Positions 18,342 to 31,123 of a stretch of 64,000 nucleotides of DNA are shown piece by piece (the first letter of the stretch is position 1; every line of letters starts with the position of its first letter). Origin of the DNA: Firmicutes bacterium HGW-Firmicutes-7. GTDB lineage: Bacteria; Bacillota; Clostridia; Lachnospirales; Vallitaleaceae. The position numbers and the translations under genes were made by a program. The notes beneath the pieces are model-generated. The model was not told the origin of the DNA, made no database searches, and saw nothing but the letters and a program-made list of their open reading frames with translations. Location: the NCBI GenBank assembly GCA_002841375.1, contig PGZO01000018.1, positions 1 through 64,000 on the forward strand. The letters run 5' to 3'.

Positions 18342-18586
18342 AAATCATATTAAAAGCAATGATCAGAAGAGTAATTTATTGAGGTTTTATAGAGAGAAAC
18401 TGTCAGCGGCTGAAAGCAGTTTTATTACTGATATAAACGAAGTGCCTCTGTGAGCTAGTTAGGTGAAAAAGAGTAGCTTAACTCGGAAGCTAAACGTTAA
18501 TTAGCTTTAAGTGAGAACAATTTGTTCTAATTAGAGTGGAACCACGGATTAATTCGCCTCTTATCATATGATGAGAGGCTTTTTTG
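18342..18586 (+). ncRNA. T-box riboswitch leader, probably tRNA-Cys responsive
   Basis: The leader has the T-box consensus at 18533-18547 (AGAGTGGAACCACGG) for pairing with the acceptor end of uncharged tRNA, and a terminator at 18556-18585 (GCCTCT...AGAGGC and a T run). Stem I appears to be closed by AGAG near 18391 and CTCT at 18446-18449, placing TGC (18443-18445), a Cys codon, at the specifier position. The cysE and cysS genes downstream agree with a cysteine specifier. The specifier assignment is by eye and less certain than the T-box itself. Confidence 0.9.
18556..18585 (+). terminator. T-box regulated terminator
   Basis: A hairpin of GCCTCT and AGAGGC extended by TATCAT/ATGATG with one wobble pair, then six T residues. 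It overlaps the antiterminator formed with the T-box sequence. Confidence 0.85.
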
Positions 18587-24261: not shown

Positions 24262-24903
24262 TTGGGAGAAGCTATTGCATTTGAAGAGTTACCGTTGTAT
24301 AATGATCAAGAGCTTGTTGGACTTATAAGAAGTGGGCACGATTTCGCTCTGGATTTTTTGATGAATAAGTACAAGATTCTTGTTGAAAGAAAGGCTAAAT
24401 CTTATTATTTAATAGGTGCTAGTAAAGATGATATAATTCAAGAAGGCATGATTGGTTTGTTTAAAGCTATTAGGGACTACAATCCTAACCGAGAAGCGTC
24501 TTTTTATTCTTTTGCTGATTTATGTGTAACAAGACAAATGATTTCTGCTGTAAAAGCTTCAACAAGGCAAAAACATATGCCCCTTAATACGTATATTTCA
24601 CTTAATAAACCAATTTTTGAAGAAGATAATGATAAGACAGATATGCTTGAAGTGATGCCTTCTAGTAAAATCGTAGATCCCGAAGAAGTTTTTATTGGAG
24701 AAGAAACCAAACACATTATTGAAGATGAGCTTGCAAAGAGATTAAGCAAGATGGAAAATGAAATTTTGCAATTGTATGTTGATGGCATTAGTTATGTTGA
24801 AATTGCAGAGATGACAGATAGACCCATCAAATCAATTGATAATGCATTGCAACGTATTAAGAAGAAAGTTGAGCAAATTATTAAAGATAAACAAGAATTA
24901 TAA
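24262..24903 (+). CDS. sigH: RNA polymerase sporulation sigma factor SigH
   Basis: This 213-residue sigma-70-family factor directs early sporulation and stationary-phase transcription. Region 2 (about 20-95) includes DDIIQEGMIGLFKAIRDY, and region 4 (about 145-200) includes the helix-turn-helix around GISYVEIAEMTDRPIKSIDN. The start is TTG 24262, supported by GGAGGTGG (24250-24257). Its location after cysS-mrnC-rlmB-yacP is the usual one. It is strong evidence of an endospore-forming lineage. Confidence 0.94.
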   Translation: MGEAIAFEELPLYNDQELVGLIRSGHDFALDFLMNKYKILVERKAKSYYLIGASKDDIIQEGMIGLFKAIRDYNPNREASFYSFADLCVTRQMISAVKASTRQKHMPLNTYISLNKPIFEEDNDKTDMLEVMPSSKIVDPEEVFIGEETKHIIEDELAKRLSKMENEILQLYVDGISYVEIAEMTDRPIKSIDNALQRIKKKVEQIIKDKQEL

Positions 24904-24927: not shown

Positions 24928-24999
24928 GCTGGTATAACTCAGTGGTAGAGTACTACATTGGTAATGTAGAAGTCATGGGTTCAAATCCCATTATCAGCT
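24928..24999 (+). tRNA. tRNA-Thr (anticodon GGT)
   Basis: A complete cloverleaf of 72 nt can be drawn. The acceptor arms are GCTGGTA and TATCAGC (one wobble), the D arm ACTC/GAGT, the anticodon stem CTACA/TGTAG with loop TTGGTAA, and the T arm ATGGG-TTCAAAT-CCCAT. The anticodon is GGT, reading ACC/ACT. CCA is not encoded in register. Confidence 0.95.
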
Positions 25000-25110: not shown

Positions 25111-25139
25111 TTGACCATTCTAATATTATGGAATATAAT
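25111..25139 (+). promoter_or_regulatory. Sigma-A promoter of the ABC-F leader
   Basis: TTGACC (25111-25116), a 17-bp spacer and TATAAT (25134-25139), giving a leader of about 300 nt before the ABC-F start codon. Confidence 0.75.
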
Positions 25140-25173
25140 AGTAACAGTAAAATATTTTTTGAAAGGGTAAACC

Positions 25174-25305
25174 ATGAACAAAACACTTAGATGGATTAAA
25201 TTTGAATCAATTATGACCTGGATTTTTCAATTTTACGCTATGGGTCTGTCCAAATTTAATAGAATTATTAACAACCATATGAGTATTTTGGTCAATTCAT
25301 TTTAA
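25174..25305 (+). CDS. 43-codon leader peptide ORF upstream of ABC-F gene
   Basis: This short ORF starts with ATG 25174 after GAAAGGG (25161-25167) and ends at TAA 25303. The peptide is basic and aromatic, beginning MNKTLRWIKFESIM and ending with NHMSILVNSF. It is the first ORF downstream of a strong promoter and is followed by an intrinsic terminator and then the ABC-F gene. That layout is typical of ribosome-mediated attenuators of ABC-F, erm and cfr-type resistance genes, where drug-stalled ribosomes allow read-through. Translation and stalling are inferred. Confidence 0.6.
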   Translation: MNKTLRWIKFESIMTWIFQFYAMGLSKFNRIINNHMSILVNSF

Positions 25306-25347
25306 AATAAAGAAGGTTACTGATTTGATTTTATAAATTGAAATGAT

Positions 25348-25378
25348 ATCCCAAGGCTTATAGGCTTTGGGATTTTTT
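25348..25378 (+). terminator. Intrinsic terminator inside the ABC-F leader (attenuator)
   Basis: Arms ATCCCAA (25348-25354) and TTGGGAT (25367-25373), extended inward by G-T, G-C and C-G pairs, are followed by six T residues. It lies 43 bp after the leader ORF and 66 bp before the ABC-F start. Its placement upstream of the gene it shares a transcript with suggests conditional termination. An alternative antiterminator pairing was not identified by eye. Confidence 0.75.
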
Positions 25379-25443
25379 GTGGAGTTTTTTAACCTAACAA
25401 GGGCGAGTAGCCATGATTAACTGAAAAAGTGAGGATTATTAAA

Positions 25444-27351
25444 ATGATTGAATGCAGTATAAAAGATTTAACTAAATATTACGGTGCCAATAAAATATTT
25501 CAAAATATCTCCTTCGATGTCAAAACAAATGAAAGAATTGGCTTAATCGGACAGAATGGTTGTGGCAAGACGACGATCATGAAAATTATTATGGGACTAG
25601 AAGAATATCAAGAAGGAGACATTGCTATTCGCAAAGATACCAAGGTAGGGTATCTAAATCAAATTCCAGTCTATGATGAAGGCGCAACAACGAGGGAAGT
25701 AATTAATCTTGCCTTTGAGAATGCTTATAAGATTAAGAAGAAGATGAAGTTCTATGAAGAAAAGTTCAGTCAACTTCAAGGAGATGCCTTAGAAAAAGCA
25801 ATTAGTAGTTATGGCGGTTTGGTAGTGCAATTTGAAGCCTTAAGTGGTTATGAAATCGAAACTAAAATCAGCAAGATTACTGAAGGCCTTCAAATAACTG
25901 AAACATTAAAAGAAATGCCCTTTGAACACCTAAGCGGTGGGGAGAAAACAAGAGTCATTCTAGCAAAAATTTTACTTGAGCAGCCTGATATATTGTTGCT
26001 TGATGAACCCTCAAACCACTTAGATTTAGTAGCTATCGAATGGCTGGAAGGTTTCTTAAAGGAATATAAAGGTTCTGTTCTTGTAGTGTCCCATGATCGC
26101 TATTTTTTAGACAGTGTTGTTAGTAAAATAGTAGAACTGGAATTTGATAAGGCTGTTCTTTACCTTGGTAATTACAGCTACTATTTAGTAGAAAAAGAAC
26201 GAAGATTCCTACTGGAGTATAAAAAATATCAAAATCAGCAAAAGAAAATTGAAAATATGGAAAGACAAATTGAGCGTTATCGTATTTGGGGCGTTATGAG
26301 AGATAGTGATAAAATGTTTCGACGTGCTAAGGAACTTGAAAAGCGTCTTGAGAAAATAGATGTATTTGATCGTCCAGTATTTGAAAAAAGAAAGGTTCGT
26401 TTAGATGCTAACATGGTTAGCAGAACTGGTAAGATTGTTCTTAAAACAGAAGGCCTAAGAAAAAGTTTTGGTGAAAAAAAGCTTCTTCATAGTGTTGATT
26501 TAGAAATATTTTATCAAGACAGTGTATGTATTGCTGGGATAAATGGTAGTGGTAAAACAACGCTTTTAAAGATGATACTTGGGGAGCTTGAACCTGATAG
26601 TGGTACTGTTAAAATTGGTTCAAGAGTTAAAATAGGATACTTATCTCAAAATGTTACTTATGAGGATGAAGAACAAACAGTGCTTGAGTATTTTTCACAT
26701 CTACACGACTTAACATTGGGAGAAGCAAGATCCCAGTTGGCAAAAGTCTTATTTATTAAAGATGATGTTAATAAGAAAATTAAGTCCTTATCTGGTGGAG
26801 AAAAAAGCAAGTTAAAGCTCTGTTCCTTAACCTTTGATGGTGTAAATTTTATGATTCTTGATGAGCCAACCAATCATCTAGACATTGATTCGAGAGAAGT
26901 ACTTGAGGAAACCCTATTAGAATTTGATGGGACGATATTATTTGTTTCACATGACCGCTATTTTATTAATAAGGTTGCTGATAGGATGATGACTATTGAA
27001 AATAATAGTATCAAAATCTATAACGGAGATTATACCTATTACTTAGAGGAAATTCAAAAGTCTCTAGAAAATGAATTAAACCAAAGTGATATAAATACAC
27101 CAGAAGCAAGAAAAATACCAATACAAAAGCCTTTAAAAAAACATATAAGTTCAACTTTTATAACCAAGAAACTAGAGTGTATCGAAAAAGAAATTGAAGA
27201 AAAGGAAGAAAAAATAAAAGAGCTAAATGAAGCGATGCATCTGCATAGTTCAAATGCCAACCATCTCAAGGAGCTTTTTGAAGAGAAAGAAAAAATTGAA
27301 ATAGAACTCCAAATTGATTACGAGCAATGGGAAACATATCAATTGAATTAG
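25444..27351 (+). CDS. ABC-F family ATPase, possible ribosome-protection factor
   Basis: This 635-residue soluble protein has two ABC ATPase domains and no membrane segment. Walker A motifs are GQNGCGKTT (about 37-45) and GINGSGKTT (about 365). Signatures are LSGGEKTR and LSGGEKSK, and Walker B ends are DEPSNHLD and DEPTNHLD. A charged interdomain linker and a C-terminal coiled-coil tail (about 575-635, KEIEEKEEKIKELNE) follow the ABC-F plan of ribosome-binding translation or antibiotic-protection factors. ATG 25444 follows GTGAGG. The leader ORF and terminator suggest drug-inducible expression. Whether it confers resistance, and to what, is not knowable here. Confidence 0.88.
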   Translation: MIECSIKDLTKYYGANKIFQNISFDVKTNERIGLIGQNGCGKTTIMKIIMGLEEYQEGDIAIRKDTKVGYLNQIPVYDEGATTREVINLAFENAYKIKKKMKFYEEKFSQLQGDALEKAISSYGGLVVQFEALSGYEIETKISKITEGLQITETLKEMPFEHLSGGEKTRVILAKILLEQPDILLLDEPSNHLDLVAIEWLEGFLKEYKGSVLVVSHDRYFLDSVVSKIVELEFDKAVLYLGNYSYYLVEKERRFLLEYKKYQNQQKKIENMERQIERYRIWGVMRDSDKMFRRAKELEKRLEKIDVFDRPVFEKRKVRLDANMVSRTGKIVLKTEGLRKSFGEKKLLHSVDLEIFYQDSVCIAGINGSGKTTLLKMILGELEPDSGTVKIGSRVKIGYLSQNVTYEDEEQTVLEYFSHLHDLTLGEARSQLAKVLFIKDDVNKKIKSLSGGEKSKLKLCSLTFDGVNFMILDEPTNHLDIDSREVLEETLLEFDGTILFVSHDRYFINKVADRMMTIENNSIKIYNGDYTYYLEEIQKSLENELNQSDINTPEARKIPIQKPLKKHISSTFITKKLECIEKEIEEKEEKIKELNEAMHLHSSNANHLKELFEEKEKIEIELQIDYEQWETYQLN

Positions 27352-27431: not shown

Positions 27432-27460
27432 AAAGTTGACAAAGGATAGAGGTGTTGAAA

Positions 27461-28084
27461 TTGTCTTCTAATAGTATAAGAAAGTACAAAAGATTAATGG
27501 AAACATCAGAAGAGTTGTTTTCTACAATGGGTTATAAAGCAGTTTCAATGGATCAAATTGCTGAAGCAGCAGGTATTAGTAAAATGACCATCTATAAACA
27601 TTTTAAGTCAAAAGAGGAGCTATTTATATCAGTCATTCTTGACCTTATGAATAGACATTATGAAGTAATTGAAAATAAATTGTTTAAGATTACAGGTACG
27701 ATGGAGAAAATTAATTATCTTATGTTTTATTCTTTAGAAGGAGCGAAGGAGTTTAGTCTTGATTTTTATAAAGATATAATGACGATACCACAAATCATGA
27801 ATACTGTATTGATAGAAAAAAACAAAAAAAACAAAGTGCTTTTTAAAAGAATTATTGTTGATGGGATGGAAAAGAGGGAGATAAGAAAACTAGATCCAGA
27901 TTTTGTTGCAGAAGCGTTAATTACAATGGTTGAATTAATTGGGAAAAAATATTTTAATTCTATTGAAACGAAGGACGATTTACAAGATATGACAAAAAAT
28001 ATATTTGATATTTTGAAATATGGCCTATTAGGTGGTATGGAGGTGAATAAAAATGGACAGCAAAGAAGTGTTAATGAAAGTTGA
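27461..28084 (+). CDS. TetR-family transcriptional regulator
   Basis: This 207-residue regulator has the TetR DNA-binding domain at the N terminus (MDQIAEAAGISKMTIYKHFKSKEEL, about 25-50) and a variable all-helical ligand domain. TTG 27461 is preferred because GAGGTG lies six bases upstream; GTG 27452 and TTG 27455 are in frame. It overlaps the ABC ATPase gene by 32 bp and therefore heads the efflux operon. It probably represses its own promoter through the inverted repeat at 27409. Confidence 0.88.
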   Translation: MSSNSIRKYKRLMETSEELFSTMGYKAVSMDQIAEAAGISKMTIYKHFKSKEELFISVILDLMNRHYEVIENKLFKITGTMEKINYLMFYSLEGAKEFSLDFYKDIMTIPQIMNTVLIEKNKKNKVLFKRIIVDGMEKREIRKLDPDFVAEALITMVELIGKKYFNSIETKDDLQDMTKNIFDILKYGLLGGMEVNKNGQQRSVNES

Positions 28085-28766
28085 GGGTGTTAGTAAATTC
28101 TATCAGATGGGAGAAGTTACGGTTGCAGCTTTAAAAGATGTATCCTTAAATATATATCAAGGAGAGTTTGTAGTAATTTTAGGGCCTAGTGGTTCTGGTA
28201 AAAGTACATTGTTAAACATACTGGGAGGTATGGATTTACCTTCAGAAGGTAAGGTTGTAATGGAAGGCGAAGAAATTACTAATTATAGTGATAGAAAGTT
28301 AACGATTTATCGTAGAGAGAAGATTGGCTTTGTTTTTCAATTTTACAATCTTATGTCAAATTTAACGGCTATTGAAAATGTTGAATTGGCAACAGAAATA
28401 TGTTCAGATGCACTGAATGTTAATGAAGTTTTAGAGGCAGTTGGATTAGGAGAAAGAAAAGATCATTTTCCGGCTCAGATGAGTGGTGGAGAACAACAAA
28501 GGGTATCAATTGCAAGAGCAGTTGCAAAAAATCCATCATTACTGTTGTGTGATGAACCAACAGGTGCATTAGATTTTAATACAGGAATAAAAATATTATC
28601 GCAACTTAAGAGGATTAATAAAGAATATAATAAAACTGTCATAATTATTACGCATAATATGCCAATAGGAGCTATGGCAGATCGAGTTATTAAGATGCGA
28701 AGTGGAGAAATTATCGAAACAAAGGTAAATGATAATCCAATACCTCCAGAAGGGATTGAATGGTGA
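28053..28766 (+). CDS. ABC transporter ATP-binding protein, MacB/LolD type
   Basis: This 237-residue ATPase has Walker A GPSGSGKS, signature MSGGEQQR and Walker B LLLCDEPTGALD. The TGALDF ending and the length are typical of the MacB/LolD/FtsE group of export and mechanotransmission systems. ATG 28053 follows GGAGGTG within the end of tetR. It energises the permease encoded next. Confidence 0.92.
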   Translation: MDSKEVLMKVEGVSKFYQMGEVTVAALKDVSLNIYQGEFVVILGPSGSGKSTLLNILGGMDLPSEGKVVMEGEEITNYSDRKLTIYRREKIGFVFQFYNLMSNLTAIENVELATEICSDALNVNEVLEAVGLGERKDHFPAQMSGGEQQRVSIARAVAKNPSLLLCDEPTGALDFNTGIKILSQLKRINKEYNKTVIIITHNMPIGAMADRVIKMRSGEIIETKVNDNPIPPEGIEW

Positions 28767-31123
28767 TGAAAAGACTAGATGTAAGATTACTACGGCTAAT
28801 CAAGCACTCCAAAGGACAGTTTTTTTCGATATCCATTATGGTGATCATAGCTTTAACAATTTACATATCTTTTAATATGGTGGCGGATAACTTATATAAC
28901 TCTATTTATCACTATTATGAAGAGACAAATTTTAGTGATGTCTTTATAGAGGTAGTTCGCGTACCGAAGACGGCAATTGATAAGCTTTACACCATTGAAG
29001 GTATTGAATCGGCTCAAGGAAGAATAAGTGCAGATGTTCCTTTAAGGGTGGAAGATCCAGAAGAGAAAGTAAGGGTTCGTATTGTATCAGTTCCAAATGA
29101 AGACAAAATAATAAACAATTTATATAAAATTGAAGGTAAAGATCTTCAGGTTGATTCTAAGAAAACAGCTGTTTTACAGCAGTTTTCTGATGCAAGAGGT
29201 ATCGTGTTAGAGGATAGGGTAAGGCCTTATATTGCAGGACGAGAGTATCCATTAGAAGTCATTAGCATAGTAGGTAGTCCTGAATATATCTATTTGATGG
29301 AAAATGAACAAAGTTTAATACCTGCACCAGAAAAGTTCGGCATCCTTTATGTTACGGAAGATTTTGCTCAATCTGCATTAGGCTACCAGGGAAGTTATAA
29401 TGAAATAATGGTTAAAATTAACCCCGAATATTATAATAGTGTAGACAACATTGTGGATGATATTGAAGATCAATTGGACCGATACGGTGTAAAAAGTATC
29501 GTTAAGAGAGAAGATCAATTAAGCCACAGTATGATGATGCAAGAAGTTGAACAATTAGAAGCTATGGCTACATCAATTACATTGCTATTTTTGATTGTTG
29601 CTGCAATAATTATTAACATCATGCTTTCTAGAATTGTAAAAAATGACAGAATGTCTATAGGTGTAATGAAAGCACTTGGCTATAACAATATTAGTATTCT
29701 CATGCATTATACTAAATTTTCTCTTGCTATCGGGCTGCTAGGATCAATTATTGGAATAGTTTTAAGTATACCCTTGTCAGCTGCCTTTACAAATTTATAT
29801 ATATTCTATATGAATATTCCTATGTTTGAAATGACGTTATATGAAAAGTACTTTATATATGGAATAGTATTAACGAGTGTGTTTTGTATCATTTCAGGCT
29901 TAATTGGTGCTAGAAGTGTTTTGAAAATACTGCCTGCAAGTGCGATGCAACCTGAAATACCTAAGGCAGGACATAGAATATGGTTAGAACAAATAAAGTT
30001 TATTTGGAATAGGATTTCTTTTAGTTGGAAAATGGTCATTAGAAATATTTTCAGGAAAAAAAAGCGAGCAATATTCTTAATACTAGGCATTGCACTAACT
30101 TATTCAATAACCATGGTTCCTATATTCATGTCATCTGTTTGGGGAAATGTTTTTATGATTCAGTATGGTAAGTATCAGACAATGGGGTATAATATTGACT
30201 TTACAATTCCAATGAATGACTCAGTAATAAGAGAGATTTCACAGCTTATTGACGTAGATTCCATTGAGCCTAAGACAGAAATTCCTTTTGAACTAAGAAA
30301 TGGGTGGAAAAAGAAAGCAGTGAGTGTCATTGCACTACCAGAAAATACAAGTTTTTATTATTTTGAAAGTATGTCTGGTCAGGAGTTAAAATTGCCAACA
30401 AATGGGATTTTACTATCAGATAGACTTGCTAAAGCAATTGGGGCAAGTGTTGGTGATGATATTCTTATGAAAAGTTTCTTGCCAGATGGAGATGATACAT
30501 ATATAAATGTAAAAGGTGTCGTCGAGCAGTACCTAGGTACGAATGCCTATATGACCATTGATACAATGAATGAACTGATTGGTGAAAAAGGTTTGATAAC
30601 AGGCGTTTTATTAAACTCAAAGGATGACGTAGTTACTAAGCTAAAAGATGTTAAGAATGTTAAGCAAGTGCAATCAGTAGAAGATATGAAAAATAGCTTT
30701 TTAGAATTTATGGATATGATGATCTATTCAGTAGGTGTAATGATGATCTTTGGTGGAATTCTTGGATTTGCTATTGTGTACAATGTTAATGTTATAAGTA
30801 TTAGTGAAAGAGTGATGGAGTTTTCTTCATTAAGAGTTTTGGGGTTTGATAAAAGAGAGATTTATAAAATGGTCAGTAGAGAAAATGGTATAATGGCTTT
30901 CTTTGGTATTTTAATTGGTATGCCGCTAGGCTATAGTATGTGTAAGGGGATGATAGCATCTTTGGCTATGGATATGGTAACTATTCCACTTATAATAGAA
31001 AATAGTAGTTATGTTATAACCGCAATTGCAACCTTATCTTTTGTAATAATTGCACAACTTGCTACAGTTAGAAAGATTTATAGGTTGAACTTTTTAGATG
31101 CTTTAAAAAACAGAATATCTTAG
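28766..31123 (+). CDS. ABC transporter permease with two FtsX domains
   Basis: This 785-residue membrane protein has an N-terminal membrane segment, a large extracytoplasmic MacB-type domain (about 45-250), and a three-segment FtsX unit (about 265-395). A second repeat of the same plan (periplasmic domain about 455-640, FtsX about 650-780) follows. With the ATPase and adaptor it forms a MacB-like exporter. The start is taken as ATG 28766, which overlaps the preceding TGA; ATG 28760 and GTG 28763 are alternatives. Confidence 0.88.
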   Translation: MKRLDVRLLRLIKHSKGQFFSISIMVIIALTIYISFNMVADNLYNSIYHYYEETNFSDVFIEVVRVPKTAIDKLYTIEGIESAQGRISADVPLRVEDPEEKVRVRIVSVPNEDKIINNLYKIEGKDLQVDSKKTAVLQQFSDARGIVLEDRVRPYIAGREYPLEVISIVGSPEYIYLMENEQSLIPAPEKFGILYVTEDFAQSALGYQGSYNEIMVKINPEYYNSVDNIVDDIEDQLDRYGVKSIVKREDQLSHSMMMQEVEQLEAMATSITLLFLIVAAIIINIMLSRIVKNDRMSIGVMKALGYNNISILMHYTKFSLAIGLLGSIIGIVLSIPLSAAFTNLYIFYMNIPMFEMTLYEKYFIYGIVLTSVFCIISGLIGARSVLKILPASAMQPEIPKAGHRIWLEQIKFIWNRISFSWKMVIRNIFRKKKRAIFLILGIALTYSITMVPIFMSSVWGNVFMIQYGKYQTMGYNIDFTIPMNDSVIREISQLIDVDSIEPKTEIPFELRNGWKKKAVSVIALPENTSFYYFESMSGQELKLPTNGILLSDRLAKAIGASVGDDILMKSFLPDGDDTYINVKGVVEQYLGTNAYMTIDTMNELIGEKGLITGVLLNSKDDVVTKLKDVKNVKQVQSVEDMKNSFLEFMDMMIYSVGVMMIFGGILGFAIVYNVNVISISERVMEFSSLRVLGFDKREIYKMVSRENGIMAFFGILIGMPLGYSMCKGMIASLAMDMVTIPLIIENSSYVITAIATLSFVIIAQLATVRKIYRLNFLDALKNRIS

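Follow-up and report, generated by a model that had tools for sequence, protein, structure and literature searches.

The region in front of an ABC-F ATPase gene of Firmicutes bacterium HGW-Firmicutes-7 is very probably a ribosome-mediated transcription attenuator of that gene. It lies in the window analysed here, the 64,000 nucleotides at positions 1 to 64,000 of contig PGZO01000018.1. A first-pass annotation had read the locus as a leader-peptide attenuator, and this reading is supported by the order of the parts, the conservation of the leader ORF, an antiterminator, and membership of a leader class that includes the lincomycin-inducible lmo0919/vgaL leader. The parts, three competing pairings, their conservation and the class membership were established by computation. 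The locus is a genuine attenuator of a type already known, and its antiterminator has now been located.

Layout of the leader and the ABC-F gene

All parts of the leader, and the ABC-F gene, are on the forward strand. The top promoter-like site of the region, TTGACC-N17-TATAAT (25111..25139), scores 11/12. It is followed by the Shine-Dalgarno sequence GAAAGGG (25161..25167) and by a leader ORF of 43 codons, MNKTLRWIKFESIMTWIFQFYAMGLSKFNRIINNHMSILVNSF, which the ORF scan placed exactly at 25174..25305. The intrinsic terminator (25348..25378) consists of an 11-bp stem at 25348-25373 and a T tract reaching to 25378, with a folding energy of −15.9 kcal/mol for the segment. The ABC-F ATPase gene occupies 25444..27351 (635 aa plus stop) and its start codon is most likely the ATG at 25444. 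An SD-like GTGAGG lies just 5′ of the gene at about 25429-25434, some 50 nt 3′ of the T tract and outside the terminator. Promoter, ORF with ribosome binding site, terminator and downstream gene had all been proposed in the first-pass annotation, and each was recovered. Two terminator-like sites were found against 1.0 expected from shuffled sequence. Folding of the whole leader was not better than that of shuffles (z −0.63), and the attenuator is therefore invisible to folding energy alone.

The encoded protein matches the NCBIfam model NF000355, 'ribosomal protection-like ABC-F', with 473 bits (cut-off 380). It scores below the thresholds of the individual ARE subfamilies in the NCBIfam comparison, including CplR (284 bits, cut-off 780). 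By sequence, EttA and VmlR/ExpZ are its nearest structures in the PDB, with similar scores. Judged by its sequence, a role of the protein in resistance is plausible.

Conservation of the leader in relatives

The congener L002 has an ABC-F protein that is 79% identical and an intact 43-codon leader ORF without indels. By eye we counted 31/43 identical residues in the two leader peptides; conservation of the peptide in relatives was one of the checks proposed in the first-pass annotation. Both promoter hexamers and their 17-nt spacing are identical while the spacer sequence has diverged, and the terminator stem is nearly identical. Within the ORF conservation is greatest in the first 15 codons, an LSKFN stretch and the last ten codons. 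Base pairing of the Shine-Dalgarno region, start codon and codons 1-10 with 25251-25304 explains why the ends of the ORF are conserved. Of the codons separating the putative stall site from the conserved element described below, L002 has replaced most, and it retains only the 3′ half of that element.

In relatives of the same family (ABC-F 54-56% identical) the ORF is 45-50 codons long and the parts, terminator included, come in the same order, which recurs in most of the more distant relatives inspected; positional counterparts of the leader ORF are present in other relatives as well. Upstream of the ABC-F genes of L009 (52% identical) and L012 (45%) no leader ORF of the window type, element or terminator was found, and in L009 the space available for such a leader is small. 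A leader broken in a close relative that retains the gene had been named beforehand as evidence against an attenuator: the congener keeps both. L009 and L012, which are more distant, have the gene alone.

Competing pairings in the leader RNA

Strand 1 (25160..25204), the 5′ arm of a helix P1, covers the Shine-Dalgarno region, the start codon and codons 1-10, and its computed partner is strand 2 (25251..25304). The window P1 has an energy of −19.8 kcal/mol, and its own partner ranks 1 of 65. Instead of closing P1, the segment TATGAGTATTTTGG within strand 2 (25278-25291) is able to capture strand 3, CCAAGGCTTATA (25351..25362), which overlaps the 5′ arm and loop of the terminator. This computed pairing is incompatible with the leader hairpin and with the terminator alike, and it supplies the antiterminator that the first-pass annotation had marked as something to look for. 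Its energy is −9.1 kcal/mol compared to −15.9 for the terminator segment, and when the segment is folded in isolation with the full terminator available, the minimum free energy structure has the terminator in preference to the antiterminator; the switch must therefore act during transcription.

In 63 non-redundant leaders each strand was paired with its own partner and with the partners of other leaders. P1 gave −35.0 kcal/mol with own and −21.0 with mismatched partners (p 1e-24). For the antiterminator pairing of strands 2 and 3 the values were −10.9 and −9.2 (p 1e-5), a signal that is modest per sequence (mean quantile 0.34). The negative control, strand 1 against strand 3, gave no own-partner preference in these leaders (−9.81 and −9.81, p 0.49). 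Pairs in P1 covary between leaders, for example CCGTTC/GAACGG and CTGTTC/GAACAG. Relatives also rebuild the pairing of strands 2 and 3 from different bases. In the window TATGAGT..TTTTGG faces CCAAGGCTTATA, with TATGAGT pairing to GCTTATA; in L031 ATAAG..TTTTGG faces CCAAAGCTTAT, with ATAAG pairing to CTTAT; in L003-L005 and L008 TTAGTTG.AGGAT faces ATCCTAGACTAA, with TTAGT pairing to ACTAA; and in L032 ATTAGT pairs with GCTAAT. The arrangement follows the 1:2, 2:3, 3:4 logic of classical attenuators.

A conserved element in leaders of resistance genes

The leaders share an element of 23 nt with the consensus ANGGGANNAGTCTGYCCWTTTTT, present in the window as ACGCTATGGGTCTGTCCAAATTT (25235..25257). 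Leader comparison places its core, GGTCTGTCC, at 25243-25251; in other leaders the core reads GGGANNAGTCTGTCC, with an A or T and then a T tract after it. Since the element was recognised by eye and with a regular expression, counts are biased at the matched positions; the A at −8, the C at +8 and the T tract are independent of the expression. As a separate test, both strands of the window were scanned with a matrix derived exclusively from 44 Bacilli leaders. Among 127,956 positions the site in the window leader came first, with 12.8 bits against 4.3 for the next best.

With Listeria VgaL as query against about 300 Bacilli genomes, 134 showed a strong ABC-F match; nearly all of some 90 upstream regions from these carry the element. 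The exact pattern CGGGANNAGTCTGYCCWTTTT had 43 matches in 298 Bacilli genomes and its reverse had 0. At 30 Bacilli loci the downstream genes were read, seven of their proteins being identified by NCBIfam and the rest by reading, and 29 are recognisable ribosome-drug resistance or ABC-F genes; the exception, L244, is a fragment that could not be named. The genes encode ABC-F, Cfr, Erm, a Mef-like MFS transporter, Mph and a TlrB/RlmA-like methylase. ABC-F genes follow the element in both Bacilli and Clostridia; in Bacilli it is also found ahead of cfr, erm, mef-like, mph and tlrB-like genes (L242, L243, L245, L264, L265 and L269 for the types other than ABC-F, among them mef-like L243, mph L245, erm L264 and tlrB-like L265). 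In several leaders of the erm/mef/mph/tlrB type the T-rich tail of the element is complementary to the Shine-Dalgarno region of an ErmD-like leader peptide. A strong terminator follows the element in 101/111 leaders. The Staphylococcus-type leaders L181, L185, L192, L211, L219 and L133 carry the element with no strong terminator after it and may use translational attenuation.

Two other ABC-F paralogues each in the window genome and the congener are without the element. The exact pattern GGGAGNAGTCTGTCC had 9 matches in 391 genomes of the window's class, of which only L126 is a leader before an ABC-F gene. Scanning genome contigs with a profile of the ABC-F alignment mostly returned distant ABC-F proteins, through generic nucleotide-binding patterns. 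Searches of plasmid DNA gave no near match and searches of viral contigs no match. In Rfam (cmscan, gathering score) the window leader matched no family, and among the relatives only lmo0919 matched, to rliI. Among the freely readable papers searched none describes the element; the class-wide element and the peptide stretch that accompanies it appear undescribed.

This stretch, R-A-I-T/F-H, is found at a fixed distance upstream of the element, at codons −12 to −8 counted back from it. Among the aligned leaders His occupies −8 in 35/73 and Ile −10 in 43/73. In ungapped register the stretch corresponds to S-I-M-T-W of the window peptide, codons 12-16 (25207..25221), which we regard as the candidate stall site. 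The GGG of the element begins about 18-20 nt past the first base of codon −8, and would thus lie just ahead of a ribosome stalled at that codon, as we infer it to be.

Action of the element as nucleic acid

Within the leader ORFs the element is in frame 0 in 79 leaders, frame 1 in 15 and frame 2 in 3, assignments that were automatic, with a few ORF choices possibly wrong; in 11 leaders it lies at or after the stop codon, the ORF ending before or inside it. The distance from uORF start to element is nearly fixed although the frame varies, and in the erm/mef/mph type a short peptide ends well upstream. Being independent of the reading frame, and in some leaders located past the stop codon, the element acts as nucleic acid; the same counts rule out that it is part of a stalling peptide. 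A general function as antiterminator arm against the terminator was also rejected, the shuffle test giving a mean p of 0.50 with 4/73 leaders below 0.05. Pairing between element and terminator was strong only in L016/L017/L019 (p 0.02-0.03). The leader stop codon of these three lies inside the element.

Two roles are suggested by its sequence. The element may possibly pause RNA polymerase: it resembles the elemental pause signal, which has G at −10, a pyrimidine at −1 and G at +1 (PMC12288461). TTNTTT, the NusG pause motif, directly follows the element in 44/111 leaders against a background of 1.1%, and NusG pausing synchronises polymerase and ribosome in tlrB (PMC6851288) and acts in vmlR (PMC9226507). 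In the window no such motif follows the element or occurs between uORF start and terminator; TTNTTT occurs just three times between promoter and gene: upstream of the uORF (25155), in the terminator tract (25373) and after that tract (25385). The sequence would also fit a small hairpin in which GGG pairs with YCC, and one pair of this hairpin switches from G-C to A-T in five leaders.

Comparison with known attenuators

A close known counterpart is the leader of Listeria monocytogenes lmo0919 (vgaL; Rfam rliI, RF01487), which like the window has an ABC-F gene, a terminator and a P1 helix. Its SD-led ORF of 36 codons, MFLLNARTSIAKFLYIVRAIFSVIAVTLAKSAQKTV, and its element, GGCGAAGTCTGCCC, show the leader length, spacing and element of the class, whereas the sequence is otherwise unrelated to the window and the element is in another reading frame. 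The lmo0919 product is reported to be made only with lincomycin, under attenuation control (PMC6310831, PMC10201436), and published work aligns the lmo0919 leader with the short uORF of cplR (PMC10201436). Bacillus subtilis vmlR resembles the window in having a uORF inside an anti-antiterminator hairpin, an antiterminator, a terminator and an ABC-F gene (PMC9226507), but its uORF has 3 codons (MIN) and a NusG pause has been demonstrated. The clostridial ABC-F gene cplR of Clostridioides difficile likewise has a uORF and competing hairpins (PMC10201436); unlike the window it has a 3-codon uORF, MR[I/M], and a terminator that sequesters the Shine-Dalgarno sequence. In B. subtilis, control of tlrB combines ribosome stalling with NusG pausing (PMC6851288). 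Leaders of the tlrB/ErmD type (L264, L265, L245, L243) share the element with the window, but their short RLR/RXR-type peptides end well before it and their downstream genes are methylases, efflux or drug-modifying enzymes instead of ABC-F.

Proposed mechanism and alternative explanations

Drug-induced stalling, readthrough, the drug class and the role of the element enter the following scheme as inferences. Without drug, ribosomes would complete the leader ORF and strands 1 and 2 would close as P1, leaving strand 3 free for strand 4, and RNA polymerase would stop at about 25374-25378. A drug in the peptidyl transferase centre or exit tunnel would arrest the ribosome soon after the start of the ORF, probably around codons 12-16, and strand 1 would be covered. 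Strand 2 could then capture strand 3 (25278-25291 with 25351-25362), the terminator would be unable to form and the ABC-F gene would be transcribed. The element at 25235-25257 would lie just ahead of the stalled ribosome, at the start of strand 2, and its most likely job would be to hold RNA polymerase, or to form a small hairpin, keeping ribosome and polymerase in step. Several observations count against the scheme: the preference of the isolated segment for the terminator, the modest antiterminator signal in single sequences, a flat shuffle test against the terminator arm (mean p 0.50), the half-retained element and replaced codons of the congener, and the missing TTNTTT after the element in the window.

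Control could instead be mainly translational, with helices masking the ABC-F ribosome binding site and the terminator secondary. Both levels are combined in cplR and vmlR (PMC10201436, PMC9226507), and the Staphylococcus-type leaders do without a strong terminator. The position of the ABC-F Shine-Dalgarno sequence in the window, outside the terminator, argues against such control, as does the strong terminator in most leaders of the class, and we consider it quite improbable. Slightly less credit still is due to a constitutive terminator that merely lowers expression behind a chance reading frame. In its favour, short ORFs rich in A+T are frequent, and shuffles fold as well as the whole leader, but chance would not account for the conserved ORF length, start-to-element distance and peptide register, for P1 and antiterminator pairings that exceed the cross-partner controls, or for an element that ranks first in the window and is missing from the other ABC-F paralogues.

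A drug-independent attenuator sensing an amino acid or tRNA would suit a leader of 43 codons, longer than the 3-codon uORFs of vmlR and cplR. The window leader has no run of a single amino acid, the only T-box of the window is found elsewhere (18350-18564), and the leader class precedes ribosome-drug resistance genes; we judge such sensing extremely unlikely. Ribosome-mediated transcription attenuation remains the preferred reading.

Tentatively, and with somewhat less than even confidence, we propose that one ancient leader architecture, spread over Bacilli and Clostridia, controls many ribosome-drug resistance genes of the ABC-F, Cfr, Erm, Mef-like, Mph and TlrB-like types. It would consist of an R-A-I-T/F-H or ErmD-like peptide, ANGGGANNAGTCTGYCCWTTTTT at a fixed distance and a long-range P1, the element being a dedicated, frame-independent signal that synchronises ribosome and polymerase. 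If the element and the peptide stretch sense or time stalling, many Gram-positive bacteria would owe their inducible resistance to lincosamides, pleuromutilins, streptogramins, macrolides and phenicols to one recognisable signature, and silent inducible resistance genes could be spotted from sequence. The comparison also raises a testable question, namely why a nucleotide sequence is kept fixed while the reading frame through it varies.

Neighbouring genes

Directly upstream of the attenuator are a sigH-like gene (24262-24903) and a tRNA-Thr (GGT) gene (24928-24999), and a tRNA is also found near the congener's copy. The T-box leader at 18350-18564 belongs to Rfam RF00230. Downstream of the ABC-F gene, at 27452-31123, a gene for a TetR-like regulator is followed by genes for an ABC ATPase and a large FtsX/MacB-type permease.
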